Origin: Pseudomonadota bacterium
GTDB lineage: Bacteria; Pseudomonadota; Alphaproteobacteria; Rhodobacterales; Rhodobacteraceae
Length of the DNA stretch: 64,000 bases
Direction: 5' to 3'
Assembly: GCA_020161615.1 (NCBI GenBank)
Contig: JAIUPD010000003.1
Location: forward strand, 462,507 to 526,506
Of this stretch, positions 41,644-62,417 are shown one piece after another. A program made the position numbers and the translations under genes. Within the stretch, counting starts at the first letter, position 1; every line of letters starts with the position of its first letter. A model generated the notes under the pieces. That model was not told where the DNA came from and did not search any database. It saw nothing but the letters and a program-made list of their open reading frames with translations.

Positions 41644-43158
41644 TCAGCCGGCCTTGGCGCGGAATTCGCGCATCAGGAAGTCGGGGACATGGTCGCCCAT
41701 GCCGACAACCGGCGCGTCGTCGCGATTGCGGTCGCGGTCGCGGCGGCCACGGCCATTGCGGTCGGACCGCTCGCCGCGCTGCTCGTCGCGGGCGGGCTTG
41801 ACGCTGGCCAGTTCCGCCACCGGCGCCGGGGCGGCGGCCACGGGGGCCTCCACGACGGCCTCGGCAACAGCCTCGACCGGCGCGGCGGCCGTCTCACGCG
41901 GGGGACGCTCGCCCCGCGGCTTGCGCTCGCCCCGCCGCGGACGTTCGGGCCGGTCGCCGTCGCGCTTGCACTCGGGACGCGCCGAGGATTCGGCGGCGGC
42001 TTCGGCGAAACCTTCGGGCGGCACGCCGCGCGGCAGTTTCTTCTGCAGAAGCGCCTCGATGGCGGCGAGGTATTTGTCGTCCGAGGGCGTGGCGATGGTG
42101 AAGGCCTTGCCCGAACGCCCTGCCCGGCCGGTGCGGCCGATGCGGTGGACATAATCCTCGGCGTGGCTAGGCACGTCGAAGTTGAAGACATGGCTCACGG
42201 CCGGAATATCCAGCCCGCGCGCCGCCACGTCCGAGGCGATCAGCAACCGCACCGTCCCGTCGCGGAACCCGTCGAGCGTGCGCGTGCGCACCGACTGATC
42301 CAGATCGCCATGGATCGGCGAGGCGTTGAACCCGTGCTTTTTCAGCGACTTGGCCACGACATCCACGTCGATCTTGCGGTTGCAGAAGATGATCGCGTTG
42401 GTGCAGGCGTCGCCCTCGGCCTCGATCAGCGAGCGCAGCATGGCGCGTTTCTCGCCGAAGGCGCGGTCGCGGCGGGTCGGCGTCAGTTCGATCAGCTGCT
42501 GTTCGATGGTCTCGGCGGTGGTCGCCTGACGCGCCACCTCGACCCGGGCCGGGTTCGACAGGAACATGTTGGTGATGCGCTCGATCTCGGGCGCCATGGT
42601 CGCCGAGAAGAACAGCGTCTGCCGGGTGAAGGGGGTCAGCTGGAAGATGCGCTCGATATCGGGGATGAAGCCCATGTCGAGCATCCGGTCAGCCTCGTCC
42701 ACGACCATGACTTCCACGCCGGTGAGCAAAAGCTTGCCGCGTTCGAAATGGTCGAGCAGGCGGCCGGGCGTCGCGATCAGCACGTCGACGCCACGGTCGA
42801 TCAGCTTGTCCTGTTCGGTGAACGAGACGCCGCCGATCAGCAGGGCCTTGGTCAACTTGGTATATTTCGCGTAGACGTCGAAATTCTCGGCCACCTGGGC
42901 GGCCAGTTCGCGCGTCGGCGCCAGCACCAGCGAGCGCGGCATCCGGGCCCGGGCGCGGCCCCGCGACAGGCGCGTGATCAGCGGCAGGGTGAACGAGGCA
43001 GTCTTGCCGGTGCCCGTCTGGGCGATGCCCAGCACGTCGCGGCCTTCCAGCGCCTCGGGGATCGCCTGCGCCTGGATCGGCGTGGGATTGTCATAGCCGG
43101 CTTCGGCAACGGCCTTGAGGACCTTGGGGTCCAGCTTCAGATCGGTAAACTTGGTCAT
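41644..43158 (-). CDS. DEAD-box ATP-dependent RNA helicase (RhlE-like)
   Basis: A 504-residue RNA helicase. All motifs are intact: Q motif (YDNPTPIQAQAIPEALEGRD), I AQTGTGKT, Ia PTRELAAQ, Ib TPGR, II DEADRMLDMGF, III SAT, IV IIFCNRK, V SDVAARGLDI and VI HRIGRTGRAG. After residue ~385 comes a tail of about 120 residues with two Arg-rich parts (RPERPRRGERKPRGERPP and RSDRNGRGRRDRDRNRDD) around an Ala/Pro/Val segment, typical of RNA-binding extensions. RhlE-type helicases act in ribosome assembly, RNA decay and cold adaptation. ATG 43158 starts the domain; the longer frame upstream lacks homology. Confidence 0.92.
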   Translation of the reverse strand: MTKFTDLKLDPKVLKAVAEAGYDNPTPIQAQAIPEALEGRDVLGIAQTGTGKTASFTLPLITRLSRGRARARMPRSLVLAPTRELAAQVAENFDVYAKYTKLTKALLIGGVSFTEQDKLIDRGVDVLIATPGRLLDHFERGKLLLTGVEVMVVDEADRMLDMGFIPDIERIFQLTPFTRQTLFFSATMAPEIERITNMFLSNPARVEVARQATTAETIEQQLIELTPTRRDRAFGEKRAMLRSLIEAEGDACTNAIIFCNRKIDVDVVAKSLKKHGFNASPIHGDLDQSVRTRTLDGFRDGTVRLLIASDVAARGLDIPAVSHVFNFDVPSHAEDYVHRIGRTGRAGRSGKAFTIATPSDDKYLAAIEALLQKKLPRGVPPEGFAEAAAESSARPECKRDGDRPERPRRGERKPRGERPPRETAAAPVEAVAEAVVEAPVAAAPAPVAELASVKPARDEQRGERSDRNGRGRRDRDRNRDDAPVVGMGDHVPDFLMREFRAKAG

Positions 43159-43497
43159 ATGCGTCCGTGGTTTGCGGCATCGGGCCGCAAGGAAGGGATG
43201 GGACGCCAGATTCCGCGCCCCGGCAGCGGTCGGGCCGCTGGTAAAAGCGGCGGCCAATGGCGCGCCCTACCCCGAATCTGCCTTTGGGTCAATGTCTACA
43301 GGCGGATTCATCTTCATACGGGTTCCAGCGGGGCAAGATTCTACCTATGCGGGAGAACGCGGCATGATCGAGGCAGAATCCGGCCCCGCGGTCGTCGTTA
43401 ACGCGCAATTAACCTTTTTTCCGCCCCACCCGGTCCCCGAACCGGTCTCAATTCGGGTCGAAAAAGAACCATCCGCGAAAGCGCAGAGGTCGGTTCC
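43159..43497. other. Divergent regulatory region, helicase / diguanylate cyclase
   Basis: A 339-base gap with no gene. On the plus strand the second half is AT-richer (GTTAACGCGCAATTAACC at 43397-43414 contains two GTTAA-type half sites in opposite orientation). CCGAACCGGTCTCAATTCGG (43437-43456) forms an imperfect palindrome about 40 bases before the cyclase start. These are possible operators; promoters of standard form are not obvious. Confidence 0.4.
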
Positions 43498-44382
43498 ATG
43501 AATGCCCGCGTTTCCCTTGACGATCCCGAGTTCGCCGCCAGCACCGCGGCCGAGGTTCCCTTGATGCTGAATACCCCGATCCAGGCCGCCCTTCCCGCCC
43601 CGGCCCAGTTCGCCGCCGTCACCGACCTCATCAAATCCGTCTTCAACGTTCCCGCCGTCTCGGTCGCGCTGCATGGGGCGCCCGCCAATGCCGAGGGCGG
43701 CGTCTATCGGTCCTTTCTGGAAATCCCGCTGATCAAGGACGAGGTGGTGATCGGTTCGCTCCGGGTGCTGGACAGCGCCGAGCGGGATTTTTCCGACCGC
43801 GATTGCCAGCTTCTCGAGGGGTTCGCCAAGCTGGTCGTCGACCAGGTGGAACTCTGGGGCGAGGCCAGCCGCGACGTGCTGACCGGCGCCATGACCCGCC
43901 GCGCCTTTTCCGACACGCTGCGCAAGAGCTTCGCCGCCCGCGCCCGGGCGCATGCCAAGGCCTCGCTGGTGATCTTCGACCTCGACCATTTCAAGCGGAT
44001 CAACGACACCTGGGGCCATGCCGCGGGCGATGCGGTGCTGAAGGCCGTGGCGCGTTGCGTGCTGCGTGAGCTGCGGGTCGAGGACAGTTTCGGCCGCATC
44101 GGCGGCGAGGAATTCGCCGTCCTCGTCGCCAATGCCGATGCCGCCATCGCCTCGGATGTGGCCGAGCGCGTGCGCCGGGCCATCGAGCGCCTGTCGATCC
44201 CGGGCTATCCCCAGATCCCGGTCAGCGCCAGCTTCGGCGTGGCCGAGGCGACGGATGCGGTCCTCGATGTCGAGGATTGGACCGACAGGGCCGATGCCCA
44301 GCTTTACACGGCCAAGGAAAACGGCCGCAACCGGGTCTGCGTGGCGAACGAGGCGACACCGCGGGCGGCCATGGTGAACTGA
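43498..44382 (+). CDS. Diguanylate cyclase with degenerate GAF-like sensor
   Basis: A 294-residue protein. Residues ~25-125 resemble a truncated GAF domain (FAAVTDLIKSVFNVPAVSVA, VIGSLRVLDSAERDFSDRDC). The GGDEF domain covers ~128-285: DVLTGAMTRRAF, FDLDHFKRINDTWGHAAGD, and the active-site GGEEF near residue 201. The allosteric I-site RxxD is present as RVED exactly five residues before GGEEF, so product inhibition by c-di-GMP is expected. No EAL domain. It is soluble. The input signal is unknown. Confidence 0.9.
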   Translation: MNARVSLDDPEFAASTAAEVPLMLNTPIQAALPAPAQFAAVTDLIKSVFNVPAVSVALHGAPANAEGGVYRSFLEIPLIKDEVVIGSLRVLDSAERDFSDRDCQLLEGFAKLVVDQVELWGEASRDVLTGAMTRRAFSDTLRKSFAARARAHAKASLVIFDLDHFKRINDTWGHAAGDAVLKAVARCVLRELRVEDSFGRIGGEEFAVLVANADAAIASDVAERVRRAIERLSIPGYPQIPVSASFGVAEATDAVLDVEDWTDRADAQLYTAKENGRNRVCVANEATPRAAMVN

Positions 44383-44416
44383 CCCGCCCCGGGCACCTGG
44401 GCCTCTTGAAAAGCCG

Positions 44417-44441
44417 CGCCCGCCGGGGCGTGTTTTTCTTT
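44417..44441 (+). terminator. Terminator after the diguanylate cyclase gene
   Basis: CGCCC (44417-44421), loop GCCG, GGGCG (44426-44430), then TGTTTTTCTTT. A short but clear GC hairpin with a T-run. It isolates the cyclase gene from the small-protein genes, and its T-run touches the first TTGAACC element. Confidence 0.7.
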
Positions 44442-44470
44442 GAACCGCAGGCCTGCCCGGCGCGACCCAT
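44440..44470 (+). promoter_or_regulatory. Promoter-like element P1 of the small-protein cluster
   Basis: TTGAACC (44440-44446), 17 bases, GACCCAT (44464-44470). The same pair with the same spacing occurs at 44700-44730 and 44969-44999. The first base of GAC is 44 bases before the ATG of the 31-residue gene. It resembles an alternative sigma-factor promoter rather than a sigma-70 one (no TATAAT-like -10). Confidence 0.55.
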
Positions 44471-44507
44471 GGTTGTTCAGTCCATCCCTCCTGCCCAGGA
44501 ACCCATC

Positions 44508-44603
44508 ATGAGCCCCACCACCGCCAAATCCCTGCTGACCCAGCCGCGCCCCGCGCCCACCACCCCGCGCCGCCCGATCCTGACGCTGTTCGGCAAGCGC
44601 TGA
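44508..44603 (+). CDS. 31-residue small protein
   Basis: ATG at 44508, preceded by CAGGA about nine bases upstream, encodes MSPTTAKSLLTQPRPAPTTP followed by RRPILTLFGKR and TGA. It is basic (six Arg/Lys, no acidic residue), Pro/Thr-rich, with a short hydrophobic C-terminal motif ILTLF. No known family. The case for it being real is its own promoter-like element upstream and a strong terminator 28 bases downstream, which leaves no other gene for this transcript to serve; a non-coding RNA is the alternative. Confidence 0.5.
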   Translation: MSPTTAKSLLTQPRPAPTTPRRPILTLFGKR

Positions 44604-44631
44604 ATCCTCCTCTTCCCTCCCCTCGTTGACT

Positions 44632-44660
44632 GGGCCGCCCTCGGGGCGGCCCTTCTTTTT
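44632..44660 (+). terminator. Terminator after the 31-residue gene
   Basis: GGGCCGCC (44632-44639) and GGCGGCCC (44645-44652) form an 8-bp perfect stem with a five-base loop, followed by TTCTTTTT. A textbook intrinsic terminator. Confidence 0.88.
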
Positions 44661-44699
44661 CGCCCGCCCCCCGGTTCGGTCGTCGCCGGCCGCCCCCGA

Positions 44700-44730
44700 T
44701 TGAACCCCAACCGCCGGTCCCGCGACACAG
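44700..44730 (+). promoter_or_regulatory. Promoter-like element P2 of the small-protein cluster
   Basis: TTGAACC (44700-44706), 17 bases, GACACAG (44724-44730). Same architecture as P1 and P3, 30 bases before the ATG of the 35-residue gene. It starts 40 bases after the preceding terminator. Confidence 0.5.
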
Positions 44731-44753
44731 ACGTATCAACCCCGGAGAGTGCC

Positions 44754-44861
44754 ATGTTCCGCCTCGATACCGCTGCCACGCTGCTCCGCCAGATCGGCGT
44801 CCCGCCCCGCGGCGCGCGCCTGCGCCAGATCCCGCTGGCCATCCCGGTCCGCAGCCGCTGA
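44754..44861 (+). CDS. 35-residue small protein
   Basis: ATG 44754 with GGAGAG seven to twelve bases upstream encodes a 35-residue basic protein starting MFRLDTAATLLRQIGVPPRG and ending IPLAIPVRSR. It could form a short amphipathic helix (residues 5-15), then an Arg/Pro-rich segment. One acidic and seven Arg residues. No family recognised. It has its own promoter-like element and terminator, as its neighbours do. Confidence 0.5.
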   Translation: MFRLDTAATLLRQIGVPPRGARLRQIPLAIPVRSR

Positions 44862-44894
44862 CCCCCGGCTGCCGGCCCTGACCGCGCCCCTGCA

Positions 44895-44925
44895 CGCCCC
44901 CGCTCTCCGGGGGCGTTTCGCATTT
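44895..44925 (+). terminator. Terminator after the 35-residue gene
   Basis: CGCCCCCG (44895-44902) pairs with CGGGGGCG (44908-44915) around loop CTCTC, followed by TTTCGCATTTT. The stem is strong; the T-run is broken. Confidence 0.75.
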
Positions 44926-44968
44926 TCCGCCCCGCGCCAGCCAATACCGCAAGGCTCTGCCGAAATCT

Positions 44969-44999
44969 TTGAACCGGATCCGGGATCGCCACGACCCAT
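44969..44999 (+). promoter_or_regulatory. Promoter-like element P3 of the small-protein cluster
   Basis: TTGAACC (44969-44975), 17 bases, GACCCAT (44993-44999). Both boxes are identical to those of P1, extended to CTTTGAACCG and CGACCCATxG. It stands 45 bases before the ATG of the 66-residue gene. Confidence 0.55.
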
Positions 45000-45037
45000 T
45001 GCCATAGAGATGCTGCTCCCAACCCAAGGATGCCCCG

Positions 45038-45238
45038 ATGACCCGCGCTGCCCTCGCCTTCGCCACCCTGCTCACCCTCTCGCTCAACGGCTCGCTCGCC
45101 GCCGCCTCGGTCCCCGTGGCCTGCAACACCCAGGGCGTCTGCGCGATCTCGCTGCGCATGCTGACGCCGCCTCCGGCCCGCCCCGCCGACCTCGCCCAGC
45201 GCGCCGCGCTCCTGCTGCCCGCCGCGGGCCAACGCTGA
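45038..45238 (+). CDS. 66-residue predicted secreted peptide with a Cys pair
   Basis: The 66-residue product starts MTRAALAFATLLTLSLNGSL, a signal peptide with likely cleavage after AAA near residue 23. The mature part of about 43 residues has two Cys (ACNTQGVC), a conserved MLTPPPARPADL segment and an Ala/Leu-rich end. It is a paralogue of the gene at 45375: both share LLTLSLNGS, the Cys pair and MLTPPPARPADL, and their DNA is nearly identical over those parts. Preceded by an AAGGATG-like site. Function unknown; predicted periplasmic or exported. Confidence 0.65.
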   Translation: MTRAALAFATLLTLSLNGSLAAASVPVACNTQGVCAISLRMLTPPPARPADLAQRAALLLPAAGQR

Positions 45239-45265
45239 CCCTTTCCTCCTGCCGCCCTCCCTCCG

Positions 45266-45295
45266 CCGCGCTCTGTCCCCGGAGCGCGGTTTTTT
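45266..45295 (+). terminator. Terminator after the 66-residue gene
   Basis: CCGCGCTC (45266-45273) pairs with GAGCGCGG (45282-45289) around an eight-base loop, followed by TTTTTT (45290-45295). A strong intrinsic terminator immediately before the fourth promoter. Confidence 0.9.
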
Positions 45296-45306
45296 CTTGT
45301 TTCCGG

Positions 45307-45332
45307 GGAACTTGCGGCGAGCGGGTGCCGTT
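45307..45332 (+). promoter_or_regulatory. EcfG-type promoter-like element P4
   Basis: GGAAC (45307-45311), 17 bases, CGTT (45329-45332). This is an exact match to the GGAAC-N16-17-CGTT consensus of the alphaproteobacterial general-stress sigma factor EcfG. The other three elements fit a relaxed form of it: TGAAC-N17-CGAC. It lies 46 bases before the ATG of the 63-residue gene. Confidence 0.55.
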
Positions 45333-45374
45333 GTTCCTGCAACAAGGACGAAACGAACCGACAGGATCGCCGCC

Positions 45375-45566
45375 ATGACCCGTACCGCCCTGGCCCTCGC
45401 CGCCCTGCTCACCCTCTCGCTCAACGGCTCCATCGCCGTCGCGGCGGTTGCCGCCTGCACCGGCGGCAGCACCTGCTCCGTGCCGCTGGGCATGCTGACG
45501 CCGCCCCCGGCCCGCCCGGCCGACCTCCCGCGCGAGGTGGCGATGCCGCTCCCTGCCGGCGGCTGA
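45375..45566 (+). CDS. 63-residue predicted secreted peptide with a Cys pair
   Basis: The product starts MTRTALALAALLTLSLNGSI, a signal peptide likely cleaved near AVAA. The mature part contains ACTGGSTC, then VPLGMLTPPPARPADL and a short Pro/Gly-rich end. It is a tandem paralogue of the 66-residue peptide, with the two Cys spaced one residue differently. The frame is open upstream to 45297, but the signal peptide places the start at ATG 45375. It ends 49 bases before prfC and may be read through into it, as no terminator is visible. Confidence 0.65.
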   Translation: MTRTALALAALLTLSLNGSIAVAAVAACTGGSTCSVPLGMLTPPPARPADLPREVAMPLPAGG

Positions 45567-45615
45567 GCGCAGGCGCCCAGTGGACAGGCGGGGCGCTTTC
45601 GGCTAGTGCGCGCGC

Positions 45616-47214
45616 ATGCTGGACAATCGCCCCACCCTGCCGCCCGAAATCGCCCGCCGCCGGACCTTTGCGATCATCTCGCATCCCGACGCCGGCAAGA
45701 CCACGCTGACCGAGAAGTTCCTGCTTTTCGGCGGGGCGATCCAGATGGCGGGCCAGGTGCGCGCCAAGGGCGAGGCGCGGCGCACGCGCTCGGACTTCAT
45801 GCAGATGGAAAAGGACCGGGGCATTTCCGTCTCGGCCTCGGCCATGTCCTTCGATTTCGAGAGTTGGCGTTTCAACCTGGTCGACACGCCCGGCCACTCG
45901 GATTTCTCGGAAGATACCTATCGCACGCTGACTGCGGTGGACGCGGCCATCATGGTGATCGACGGCGCCAAGGGCGTGGAGAGCCAGACGCAGAAACTCT
46001 TCGAGGTCTGCCGGCTCAGGGACCTGCCGATCCTGACCTTCTGCAACAAGATGGACCGCGAGGCCCGCGACACATTCGAGATCATCGACGAGATCCAGGA
46101 AAACCTGGCCATCGACGTGACCCCGGCGTCCTGGCCCATCGGTCAGGGCCGCGATTTCCTGGGTTGCTACGACATCCTGCACGACCGGCTGGAACTGATG
46201 GACCGCGCCGACCGCAACCGGGTGGGCGAGTCGATCAAGATCAAGGGGCTGGACGATCCGAAACTCGCCCAGCACATTCCGGCGGCGATGCTGGAGACGC
46301 TGAAGGAAGAGCTGGAGATGGCCCGCGCCCTCCTGCCCGCCTTCGACCGCGAGCAGGTGCTGAACGGCTCGATGACGCCGATCTGGTTCGGCTCGGCGAT
46401 CAATTCCTTCGGCGTGCGCGAACTCATGGCCGGCATGGCCGAATTCGGCCCGGCGCCGCAGCCCCTGACCACCGACAAGCGCCAGGTCGGCCCGGAGGAG
46501 GAGAAGGTCACCGGCTTCGTCTTCAAGGTCCAGGCCAACATGGACCCCAAGCACCGCGACCGCGTGGCCTTCGTGCGCCTCGCCTCGGGGCATTTCCAGC
46601 GCGGGATGAAGCTGATGCATGTCCGCTCGGGCAAGCCGATGGCGATCACCAATCCGGTCCTCTTCCTCGCCGCCGACCGCGAACTGACCGAGGAAGCCTG
46701 GGCCGGCGACATCATGGGCATCCCGAACCACGGGCAGCTTCGCATCGGCGACACGCTGACCGAGGGCGAGGCGATGCGCTTCACCGGCATCCCCTCCTTC
46801 GCGCCGGAACTCCTGCAAAATGTCCGCGCGGGCGACCCGATGAAGGCCAAGCATCTGGAAAAGGCGCTGATGCAATTCGCCGAGGAAGGCGCGGCCAAGG
46901 TCTTCAAACCCTCGATCGGCTCGGGCTTCATCGTCGGCGTGGTCGGCGCCCTGCAATTCGAGGTGCTGGCCAGCCGGATCGAGCTGGAATACGGCCTGCC
47001 GGTGCGCTTCGAGCCGTCGCAATTCACCTCGGCGCGCTGGATCTCGGGCGACAAGGCCGAGGTCGAGAAGGTGGTCAACGTGAACAAGCAGCACATTGCC
47101 ACGGATCACGACGGCGATCTGGTGTACCTGACCCGCCTGCAATGGGACATCGACCGGATCGGCCGTGACCATCCGGGCGTGAAACTGACCGCGACCAAGG
47201 AAATGATGGTCTGA
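45616..47214 (+). CDS. prfC: Peptide chain release factor 3
   Basis: A 532-residue GTPase that recycles RF1/RF2 after peptide release. G motifs: SHPDAGKTTLTEK (G1), DRGISVSASA (G2), DTPGHSDFSEDTYR (G3), NKMDRE (G4). Domain II (EEEKVTGFVFKVQANMDPKH) and domain III (LQFEVLASRIELEYGLPVRF) follow in the usual order. ISVS rather than ISVT in switch I is normal in RF3. A bulged hairpin GGGTGTTCCC/GGGACACCC (47221-47244) follows the gene without a T-run. Confidence 0.96.
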   Translation: MLDNRPTLPPEIARRRTFAIISHPDAGKTTLTEKFLLFGGAIQMAGQVRAKGEARRTRSDFMQMEKDRGISVSASAMSFDFESWRFNLVDTPGHSDFSEDTYRTLTAVDAAIMVIDGAKGVESQTQKLFEVCRLRDLPILTFCNKMDREARDTFEIIDEIQENLAIDVTPASWPIGQGRDFLGCYDILHDRLELMDRADRNRVGESIKIKGLDDPKLAQHIPAAMLETLKEELEMARALLPAFDREQVLNGSMTPIWFGSAINSFGVRELMAGMAEFGPAPQPLTTDKRQVGPEEEKVTGFVFKVQANMDPKHRDRVAFVRLASGHFQRGMKLMHVRSGKPMAITNPVLFLAADRELTEEAWAGDIMGIPNHGQLRIGDTLTEGEAMRFTGIPSFAPELLQNVRAGDPMKAKHLEKALMQFAEEGAAKVFKPSIGSGFIVGVVGALQFEVLASRIELEYGLPVRFEPSQFTSARWISGDKAEVEKVVNVNKQHIATDHDGDLVYLTRLQWDIDRIGRDHPGVKLTATKEMMV

Positions 47215-47486
47215 CGGGCCGGGTGTTCCCCGCACGGGACACCCGCCTTCCCCACGATATCAAGCCCTCGACCCGGCCCGCTGACGTTTCGGCAGGCTCG
47301 TCCTGCGCCCCCGATCCCGCTTGCGCCCCCGCCCGGCGAGGCGCATCGTCGCGGCGCAAGACGGACCCGGCTCAGGCGCCCCGCCCGCCTGCTGCCTGAC
47401 GAGGGCCCTGGCCCAGCGGCCCGGCCCTCCCGCGCATCGGCCCGCCCCGCATCCGCCGGGCGGGGGCTCGAAAAAGGAATCCCACC

Positions 47487-47618
47487 ATGGGCAAGGGCGA
47501 TAGCAAACGCGGCAACAAGGAAGCCAAGAAACCGAAGAAGGAAAAGCCGAAGGTGCTCGCCACGGCGAATTTCACCGGCGGCAAGACGACCACCATCGCC
47601 GGCAAGGCGGTGAAGTAA
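47487..47618 (+). CDS. 43-residue Lys-rich microprotein
   Basis: ATG 47487, with AAAAAGGA eight bases upstream, encodes a 43-residue protein starting MGKGDSKRGNKEAKKPKKEK and ending TIAGKAVK. The N-terminal half is almost all Lys, Glu, Pro and Gly; the C-terminal half is Thr/Gly/Ala-rich. Similar short proteins with a GDSKRGNKEAKKPKKEK-like N terminus occur in other alphaproteobacteria as conserved hypotheticals. A nucleic-acid-binding role is possible from the charge but unproven. The 272 bases between prfC and it hold only the hairpin noted at prfC. Confidence 0.75.
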   Translation: MGKGDSKRGNKEAKKPKKEKPKVLATANFTGGKTTTIAGKAVK

Positions 47619-62252: not shown

Positions 62253-62281
62253 TTGACCCGGCGGCCACTTGGGCGTATGCG
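62253..62281 (+). promoter_or_regulatory. Promoter of the SAM-II/metZ transcript
   Basis: TTGACC (62253-62258), 17 bases, TATGCG (62276-62281). A transcript from this promoter would start around 62287-62290, at the first base of the riboswitch. The -35 fits sigma-70 well and the -10 moderately. Confidence 0.65.
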
Positions 62282-62289
62282 GCGGACAT

Positions 62290-62337
62290 CGTGGGGGTTT
62301 GTGCCGGCTTGCGGCCCACGCAAAAGAAACCGCTAAA
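62290..62337 (+). ncRNA. SAM-II riboswitch
   Basis: P1 is CGTGGG (62290-62295) with CCCACG (62315-62320). The loop GGTTTGTGCCGGCTTGCGG contains the conserved TTTG and CCGGCTTGC segments. The 3' part AAAAGAAACCGCTAAAG supplies CCGC (62330-62333), which can pair with GCGG (62311-62314) to close the H-type pseudoknot, and the conserved CGCTAAA. This matches the known alphaproteobacterial SAM-II (metA/metZ) class. It binds S-adenosylmethionine and lowers expression of methionine-synthesis genes. An AAAGAGG sequence (62335-62341) sits at its 3' edge, but the metZ ATG is 77 bases further on. Confidence 0.88.
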
Positions 62338-62417
62338 GAGGCTGGGCATCGCGGATTGGCGACGCCCCCTCCTGCCGGCGTTGACAGTGCGGCTTCGGCC
62401 GCCGGGGAGACGACGGG

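Follow-up and report, generated by a model that had tools for sequence, protein, structure and literature searches.

A row of small-protein genes in Pararhodobacter is probably a target array of one ECF sigma factor with one EcfG-type member

Results

Between a gene for a GAF-GGDEF diguanylate cyclase and prfC, which encodes release factor 3, a genome of the genus Pararhodobacter (4.87 Mb, labelled G000) carries four short plus-strand open reading frames (ORFs), s1 to s4, of 31, 35, 66 and 63 codons. They lie in the window analyzed here, a 64,000-nucleotide stretch of contig JAIUPD010000003.1, and bare positions below are those of this window, on the plus strand unless stated otherwise. From the comparisons that follow, the cluster is likely to be a target array of a single extracytoplasmic function (ECF) sigma factor, encoded at G000:C1:42607-43158, together with one target of the general stress sigma factor EcfG. 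Other genomes that are named recurrently are P. aggregans D1-19 (G010), P. marinus CIC4N-9 (G009), P. oceanensis AM505 (G014), strain CCB-MM2 (G016) and Rhodobacter sp. NTK016B (G006).

The cyclase gene (43498..44382; Pfam GGDEF 1.2e-39, GAF 2.5e-5) is followed by a terminator-like hairpin at 44415..44432, and s1 (44508..44603) by a terminator at 44632..44652 that has a counterpart in P. aggregans. Behind s2 (44754..44861) lies a GC-rich hairpin with a T-poor tail (44895..44915), which was seen by eye, is unlisted by the terminator scan and represents a weak terminator or none. The s3 gene (45038..45238) ends at a terminator at 45265..45290, and no terminator between s4 (45375..45566) and prfC (45616..47214; Pfam RF3_C 1.6e-41, GTP_EFTU 1.2e-47) was listed in the scan of 43500-46500. 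Both strands of that interval hold seven terminator-like sites, against a shuffle mean of 1.7, and the three on the plus strand are those after the cyclase, s1 and s3. An earlier sequence-only reading of this DNA had named the four lengths and both neighbours, all of which are confirmed. It had also closed the cyclase gene and the first three small genes with terminators, of which the one after s2 was not detected by the scan, and had described independent monocistronic units, a description that suits s1 and s3, each with its own element and terminator, and s2 less well.

An element that we call motif A (TTGAACC-N16-CGACCYA) is common to s1, s2 and s3. Copies reading TTGAACC-N16-CGACCCA form the putative promoters of s1 (44440..44469; exact also in P. 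aggregans) and s3 (44969..44998), and the probable s2 promoter (44700..44729) ends in CGACACA, with one mismatch. The distance from the full TTGAACC to the start codon is 68 nt for s1, 54 nt for s2 and 69 nt for s3. With the pattern TGAACC-N16-CGAC(A/C)(C/T)A there are three plus-strand sites (44441, 44701 and 44970) and no others in the window on either strand, and 0/5000 dinucleotide shuffles of 44383-45615 reached three sites with this pattern (TGAACC-N16-CGACMYA), which is a form widened to admit the s2 copy. The exact motif has 48 sites in 18 genomes of the genus, compared with 0 for the reversed pattern. P. aggregans retains the boxes of s1 and s3 with different spacers. All eight genus genomes with an s3 homologue have motif A in the gap between the cyclase gene and s3: it is exact in five (G000, G010, G016, G006 and G017), has one change, at the seventh base, in G009 and G005, and has two changes (CGTCTTA) in G014. 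There is no motif A upstream of s4, which is not counted as a member of the motif-A regulon. The promoter-like element that the sequence-only reading had assigned to every gene can be found in these forms, exact for s1 and s3, with one mismatch for s2 and as a box of the EcfG type for s4; a simple scan for sigma-70 promoters gave 0. Because they have one promoter type in common, s1 and s3, perhaps with s2, probably depend together on a single sigma factor, and s4 on a different one; the earlier suggestion of a separate level for each product fits less well.

The candidate sigma gene lies elsewhere in the genome than the small-gene cluster, and two of the nine exact motif-A sites of G000 are found 2-3 kb downstream of it. 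Orthologues with 81-100% identity occur in nine of the 18 genus genomes (G000, G010, G006, G009, G016, G005, G014, G013 and G017), and the best sigma match in the other nine has an identity of ≤34%. Motif A is present in 9/9 genomes with the sigma factor and in 1/9 without it (G003, one site). Among 394 Rhodobacteraceae genomes, with presence of the sigma factor defined as a match at E ≤ 1e-30, 43 have the sigma factor, 37 have exact motif A and 27 have both, which corresponds to motif A in 27/43 genomes with the sigma factor versus 10/351 without it. Fisher tests give p = 4e-4 for the genus and 1.4e-22 for the family (6e-21 after two genus rows are dropped), and it counts against our reading that species are not independent, so that these values overstate the association and serve only as a guide. 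All 17 family genomes with a sigma factor at least 57% identical carry motif A (87 sites), as do 10 of the 26 with a more distant one (19 sites). The sigma-bearing genomes hold 106 of the 116 sites in the family, where the reversed pattern has 16 matches in 15 genomes (counted by eye). The ten family genomes with motif A and no sigma factor each hold a single site, which is accounted for by chance. In G017 the sigma gene (L204 866-1416) and the s3 copy (L040 3191-3429) are each split into two frames, through either a sequencing error or decay.

The sigma gene, an anti-sigma gene, a gene for a subtilase of family S8 and motif A stand together in 23/23 loci, nine from the genus and 14 from other genera, the latter being chosen for a site near the sigma gene among 25 genomes outside the genus that have both. 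Each of the nine genus loci has one to three exact sites in the interval from the S8 gene to the next metabolic gene, which we take from its sequence to encode an O-acetylhomoserine-sulfhydrylase-like protein; in G271 one motif A precedes the anti-sigma gene. The second gene of the operon (in G000, L195 6003-6608, minus strand, aligned with its homologues in alignment A4 and adjoining the gene for the secreted-type subtilase) matches the NCBIfam model 'antisigma' in 22/23 members (E ≤ 1, best 3.5e-12; the G000 copy reaches 2.6e-9, under the curated cut-off). At E ≤ 1, eight members match Pfam zf-HC2 and five match RseA_N, and the protein appears by eye to span the membrane once. Conservation is highest in its C-terminal part (GPSALGLY), which matches the N-terminal prodomain of fervidolysin, a subtilase propeptide, in 8/23 members (E ≤ 1, best 1.3e-4; 0.017 for G000, under the curated cut-off). 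The third gene encodes a subtilase (Pfam 1.9e-28 for the G016 copy), with D, H, N and S invariant in 11 aligned sequences at what are presumably the catalytic positions, assigned from known subtilase motifs. Kinship between the prodomain-like parts of the anti-sigma factor and of the subtilase gained no support in a profile comparison, which found no similarity (E 0.17), and a PDB search with the anti-sigma profile gave a single match, a COP-associated protein at E 0.62.

Of the nine exact sites in G000, two stand before terminator-closed units that lack an ORF. The other seven precede s1, s3 and ORFs of 26, 103, 104, 288 and 335 aa, each with a loosely defined Shine-Dalgarno sequence and with the start 55-76 nt past the motif start. 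Behind sites with one mismatch, a class in which many others look like chance, lie s2 and two ORFs of 46 and 56 aa. P. aggregans also has the 26-aa ORF (pN/pS 0.20, p = 0.05), and proteins like the 46-aa one were seen by eye in G010, G016 and G017. In the loci examined, 62 of 87 distinct exact sites are followed within the next 30-170 nt by an ORF with a loosely defined Shine-Dalgarno sequence, compared with 250/870 random positions in the same loci; the first ORF is ≤110 aa long at 36 of the 62, and 12 of the 87 sites have a terminator only. Sites in other genera precede, among others, small secreted-type proteins and RTX-like repeats (by eye).

The two ORF-less, terminator-closed units beside the sigma operon are candidate small RNAs (sRNAs) of ~130-147 nt that separate the S8 gene from the next metabolic gene (G000:C1:38.2k-43.2k, L195), and some copies have a mismatch in the promoter. 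The same units are found in L196, L197, L198, L199, L204, L205, L207 and L208, with G014 yielding one. The first aligns in nine genomes with GTCCCA invariant ahead of the terminator; the second aligns in eight, and its terminator pairs show two-sided changes. Rfam had no match for them in the four loci searched (L195, L196, L197 and L208).

The s3 and s4 proteins are paralogues with 63% identity, a relation that is absent from the sequence-only reading. The 11 aligned members have a signal-peptide-like N-terminus (by eye), two Cys five or six residues apart (C-x5-C in s3), SLRMLxPPPxRP or a close variant, and 14 invariant columns. Compared with P. aggregans, s3 has a pN/pS of 0.33 (p = 0.0065, one-sided, first 55 codons), and s2, whose homologue is 79% identical with an in-frame 12-nt insertion, has a pN/pS of 0.30 (p = 0.016, one-sided). 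Homologues of s3/s4 lie at the same place in 8/9 sigma-bearing genus genomes, with disrupted copies in G017; in the ninth, G013, no homologue was found and the gap between cyclase gene and prfC is about 160 bp. The nine sigma-less genus genomes gave no s3/s4 match better than E 0.0156, and the gap itself was read in four of them (L042, L045, L046 and L047); in another, L044, the stretch fetched holds no cyclase gene. In a family search with the s3/s4 alignment A1, 24/394 genomes matched at E ≤ 0.01, of which G000 and G016 gave strong matches; those of the remaining 22 (E 1.3e-4 or worse) were regarded as chance. A Novosphingobium metagenome-assembled genome also gave a match (L086, 37% over 57 residues). 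P. aggregans has no s4, and P. marinus has neither s1 nor s2. The s3/s4 tree, from which the disrupted G017 copies were excluded, does not form two clean clades, with the G000 s4 placed inside the s3 copies (support 0.86), and therefore gives no clear date for the duplication. None of s1-s4 matches a Pfam or NCBIfam family at E ≤ 1, DUF1127 included. The sequence-only reading had named a lack of conserved frames and elements in relatives among its refuting conditions. For s3 and s4 this condition fails, since the order of cyclase gene, small genes and prfC, with s3/s4 homologues and their elements, holds in eight Pararhodobacter genomes. It may still apply to s1 and s2, which were found in G000 and P. 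aggregans only.

Upstream of s4, a different box, GGAAC-N16/17-(C/G)GTT (motif B), is found 58-84 nt before the gene in 5/5 genomes with an s4 copy, as CGTT in G000, G016 and G017 and as GGTT in G009 and G006. The five sequences are homologous, and the product of their shuffle frequencies is consequently no probability. In G000 the putative EcfG-type promoter is GGAAC-N17-CGTT at 45307..45332. GGAAC-N16-CGTT is the published promoter of the general stress response, with GGTT as a frequent -10 variant (PMC7083833). One ECF sigma factor of G000 is over the cut-off of NCBIfam PRK12546, a model named only 'RNA polymerase sigma factor' and not EcfG. Its gene adjoins NepR- and PhyR-like ORFs, recognised by reading and with no model, with GGAAC-N16/17-CGTT between them; from this neighbourhood the sigma factor is presumed to be EcfG. 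A second, more distant sigma factor of this presumed type (L158, G000:C6 near 69.1k) scores 136.8 bits to PRK12546, under the cut-off. In G016, G009 and G006 an extra GGAAC-N16/17-CGTT box stands in the gap between cyclase gene and s3 (L037, L038 and L039), followed by a stretch of ~100-250 nt that ends in a terminator-like hairpin, in which no shared ORF was recognised by eye and which is a possible EcfG-dependent sRNA.

Discussion

The reading that we favor joins these observations into one regulon. Its operon would supply the sigma factor, an anti-sigma factor with apparently one membrane span, and a secreted-type subtilase. A signal in the envelope would lead to release of the sigma factor, and RNA polymerase carrying it would start at motif-A promoters and make short RNAs of roughly 190-290 nt, those of s1 and s3 ending at their own terminators and that of s2, which has the weakest promoter, being less clearly ended. 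Other targets of the sigma factor would be the two terminator-closed non-coding units next to the sigma operon and additional small-protein genes across the genome. With s4 under EcfG, two secreted small proteins would answer two stress systems. Binding of motif A by the sigma factor, production of the RNAs and peptides and a role of the proteins in the envelope are what we infer from the sequences.

Several observations weigh against this reading. Neither G000 nor G016 has an exact motif A upstream of its sigma gene, which leaves them without the usual autoregulation, and 16/43 sigma-bearing family genomes, all with a sigma factor below 57% identity, lack exact motif A. By the rules used, 13/87 motif-A sites are followed neither by an ORF nor by a terminator. 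The s2 element is weak by itself because it is a one-mismatch copy, a class whose reversed control is not empty (53 sites in G000 at ≤1 mismatch versus 13 reversed), and in P. aggregans it carries three mismatches. Both s1 and s2 were found in two genomes only (G000 and P. aggregans), and s1, whose homologue is 90% identical, shows no significant purifying selection (pN/pS 0.42, p = 0.25, one-sided) and is a putative coding frame. The s3 terminator varies among relatives: it is listed for G000, G006 and G017 and was not found in G010 or G016. For the s4 branch, GGAAC-N16-CGTT is not enriched in G000, with 36 sites versus 39 reversed.

The strongest competing explanation, which we consider rather unlikely, is that the array serves its RNAs first, the transcripts being trans-acting sRNAs and the s1 and s2 frames being incidental or dual-purpose, as in Pos19. 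Promoters of the motif-A type also precede the conserved ORF-less units beside the sigma operon, the locus itself has the hairpin-ended stretches without a shared ORF behind the extra GGAAC-N16/17-CGTT boxes of G016, G009 and G006 (by eye), and the last 17 codons and the stop of s1 are base-identical between G000 and P. aggregans, while pS in s3 is 0.25. However, the invariant columns of the 11 sequences and the pN/pS of s3 indicate that s3 and s4 are kept as proteins, the insertion in s2 is in frame and its pN/pS is likewise low, and the predicted fold of the s1 transcript is no better than that of shuffles (z -0.78), with nothing convincing beyond the terminator.

It is very improbable that the elements are instead promoters of the RpoH type (RpoHI/RpoHII), which are the common kind of stress promoter in Rhodobacter. 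G000 has genes for three RpoH-like proteins (by eye), and both promoter types have TTG in the -35 region, which in R. sphaeroides RpoH promoters is placed at -36 to -34, with C-14 and A-12 (PMC3441632). Motif A, with TTG-N20-CGACC, differs from these in both spacing and -10 region, its exact form is absent or single in genus genomes without the ECF sigma factor, and the ORFs behind the G000 sites are unlike heat-shock genes (by eye). On spacing and distribution we reject this identity. That the four frames and motifs are chance products of GC-rich intergenic DNA is hardly credible at all: such DNA is indeed rich in spurious ORFs (45 ORFs of ≥20 aa overlap 42500-47500), but no shuffle yielded three motifs and the protein-level conservation and synteny across the genus already refute it for s3 and s4, with s1 remaining the weakest case.

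Of related systems in other bacteria, the CcsR sRNAs and a DUF1127 gene of R. sphaeroides combine a stress-sigma-driven small gene with sRNAs that have C-rich motifs; s1-s4 match no DUF1127, and the layout differs. The promoter of E. coli sigma-E differs from motif A. E. coli sigma-E is likewise an envelope ECF sigma factor with a membrane anti-sigma factor and with proteins and sRNAs (MicA, RybB and MicL) as outputs (PMC8103513), whereas here a subtilase gene is in the operon, many targets are tiny proteins and the role of sRNAs is putative. The closest system is Pos19 (RSs0019) of R. sphaeroides, which is described as an RpoE-dependent small coding RNA in a Rhodobacteraceae stress regulon, a transcript of ~200 nt with an ECF-sigma promoter, a terminator and a short ORF (PMC5036791). 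By sequence, the s1 and s3 units fit this layout, but the promoter class differs, as the RpoE promoter is TGATCC(N15)GCGTA and not TTGAACC-N16-CGACC, and Pos19 is described as one gene and not an array (PMC5036791). The s4 box and the ECF sigma gene beside NepR/PhyR-like ORFs resemble the EcfG-NepR-PhyR response (PMC7083833, PMC5830050), although at this locus such a box stands before s4 alone and, in some relatives, before non-coding stretches, and there is no genome-wide enrichment. Subtilases are also encoded near other ECF groups, for example ECF54, where they are proposed to act without an anti-sigma factor (PMC8999054).

Searches of the open-access literature found no description of this sigma factor, its promoter or such a layout. 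The earlier statement that no described system has this arrangement holds in this sense for the layout and not for the parts, as both an ECF regulon with small coding RNAs and the EcfG response are known. The sigma factor may well have an ECF group number already. What would be new is an ECF regulon with many tiny genes and RNAs as outputs, partly in arrays, built from parts of known kinds. A bolder extension, which we offer tentatively, is that these parts form an undescribed stress circuit of Rhodobacteraceae, in which the secreted subtilase, with all its catalytic residues in place, would sense or cleave a membrane anti-sigma factor with a C-terminal domain like a subtilase propeptide, the output would be mainly tiny secreted or membrane proteins (some of them in arrays) and two paired sRNAs, and one Pararhodobacter array would have been split between the sigma factor (s1-s3) and EcfG (s4) after duplication of a gene for a secreted peptide.

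An odd row of hypothetical genes in this way becomes a testable regulon with a promoter word, a candidate sigma factor, an anti-sigma factor, a protease and a set of targets across Rhodobacteraceae, which include many proteins small enough to be missed by routine annotation. The genes s3 and s4 would be a compact example of a duplication whose copies answer to different stress sigma factors, and the pairing of anti-sigma factor and subtilase suggests a way of sensing the envelope for which the literature searches found no description.

Other features of the window

No tandem repeats were found at 44300-45700. Just 5' of prfC, TGGACA-N17-TAGTGC at 45581-45609, with similar sequences in several relatives (by eye), is likely to be the promoter of prfC itself. 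The only Rfam family over its gathering score in the window is SAM_alpha, which leaves the s1-s4 region without a known sRNA; the riboswitch lies at 62281-62357 (plus strand, 55.6 bits). Between prfC and the next gene region there is a lysine-rich ORF of 43 codons at 47487-47618 on the plus strand.

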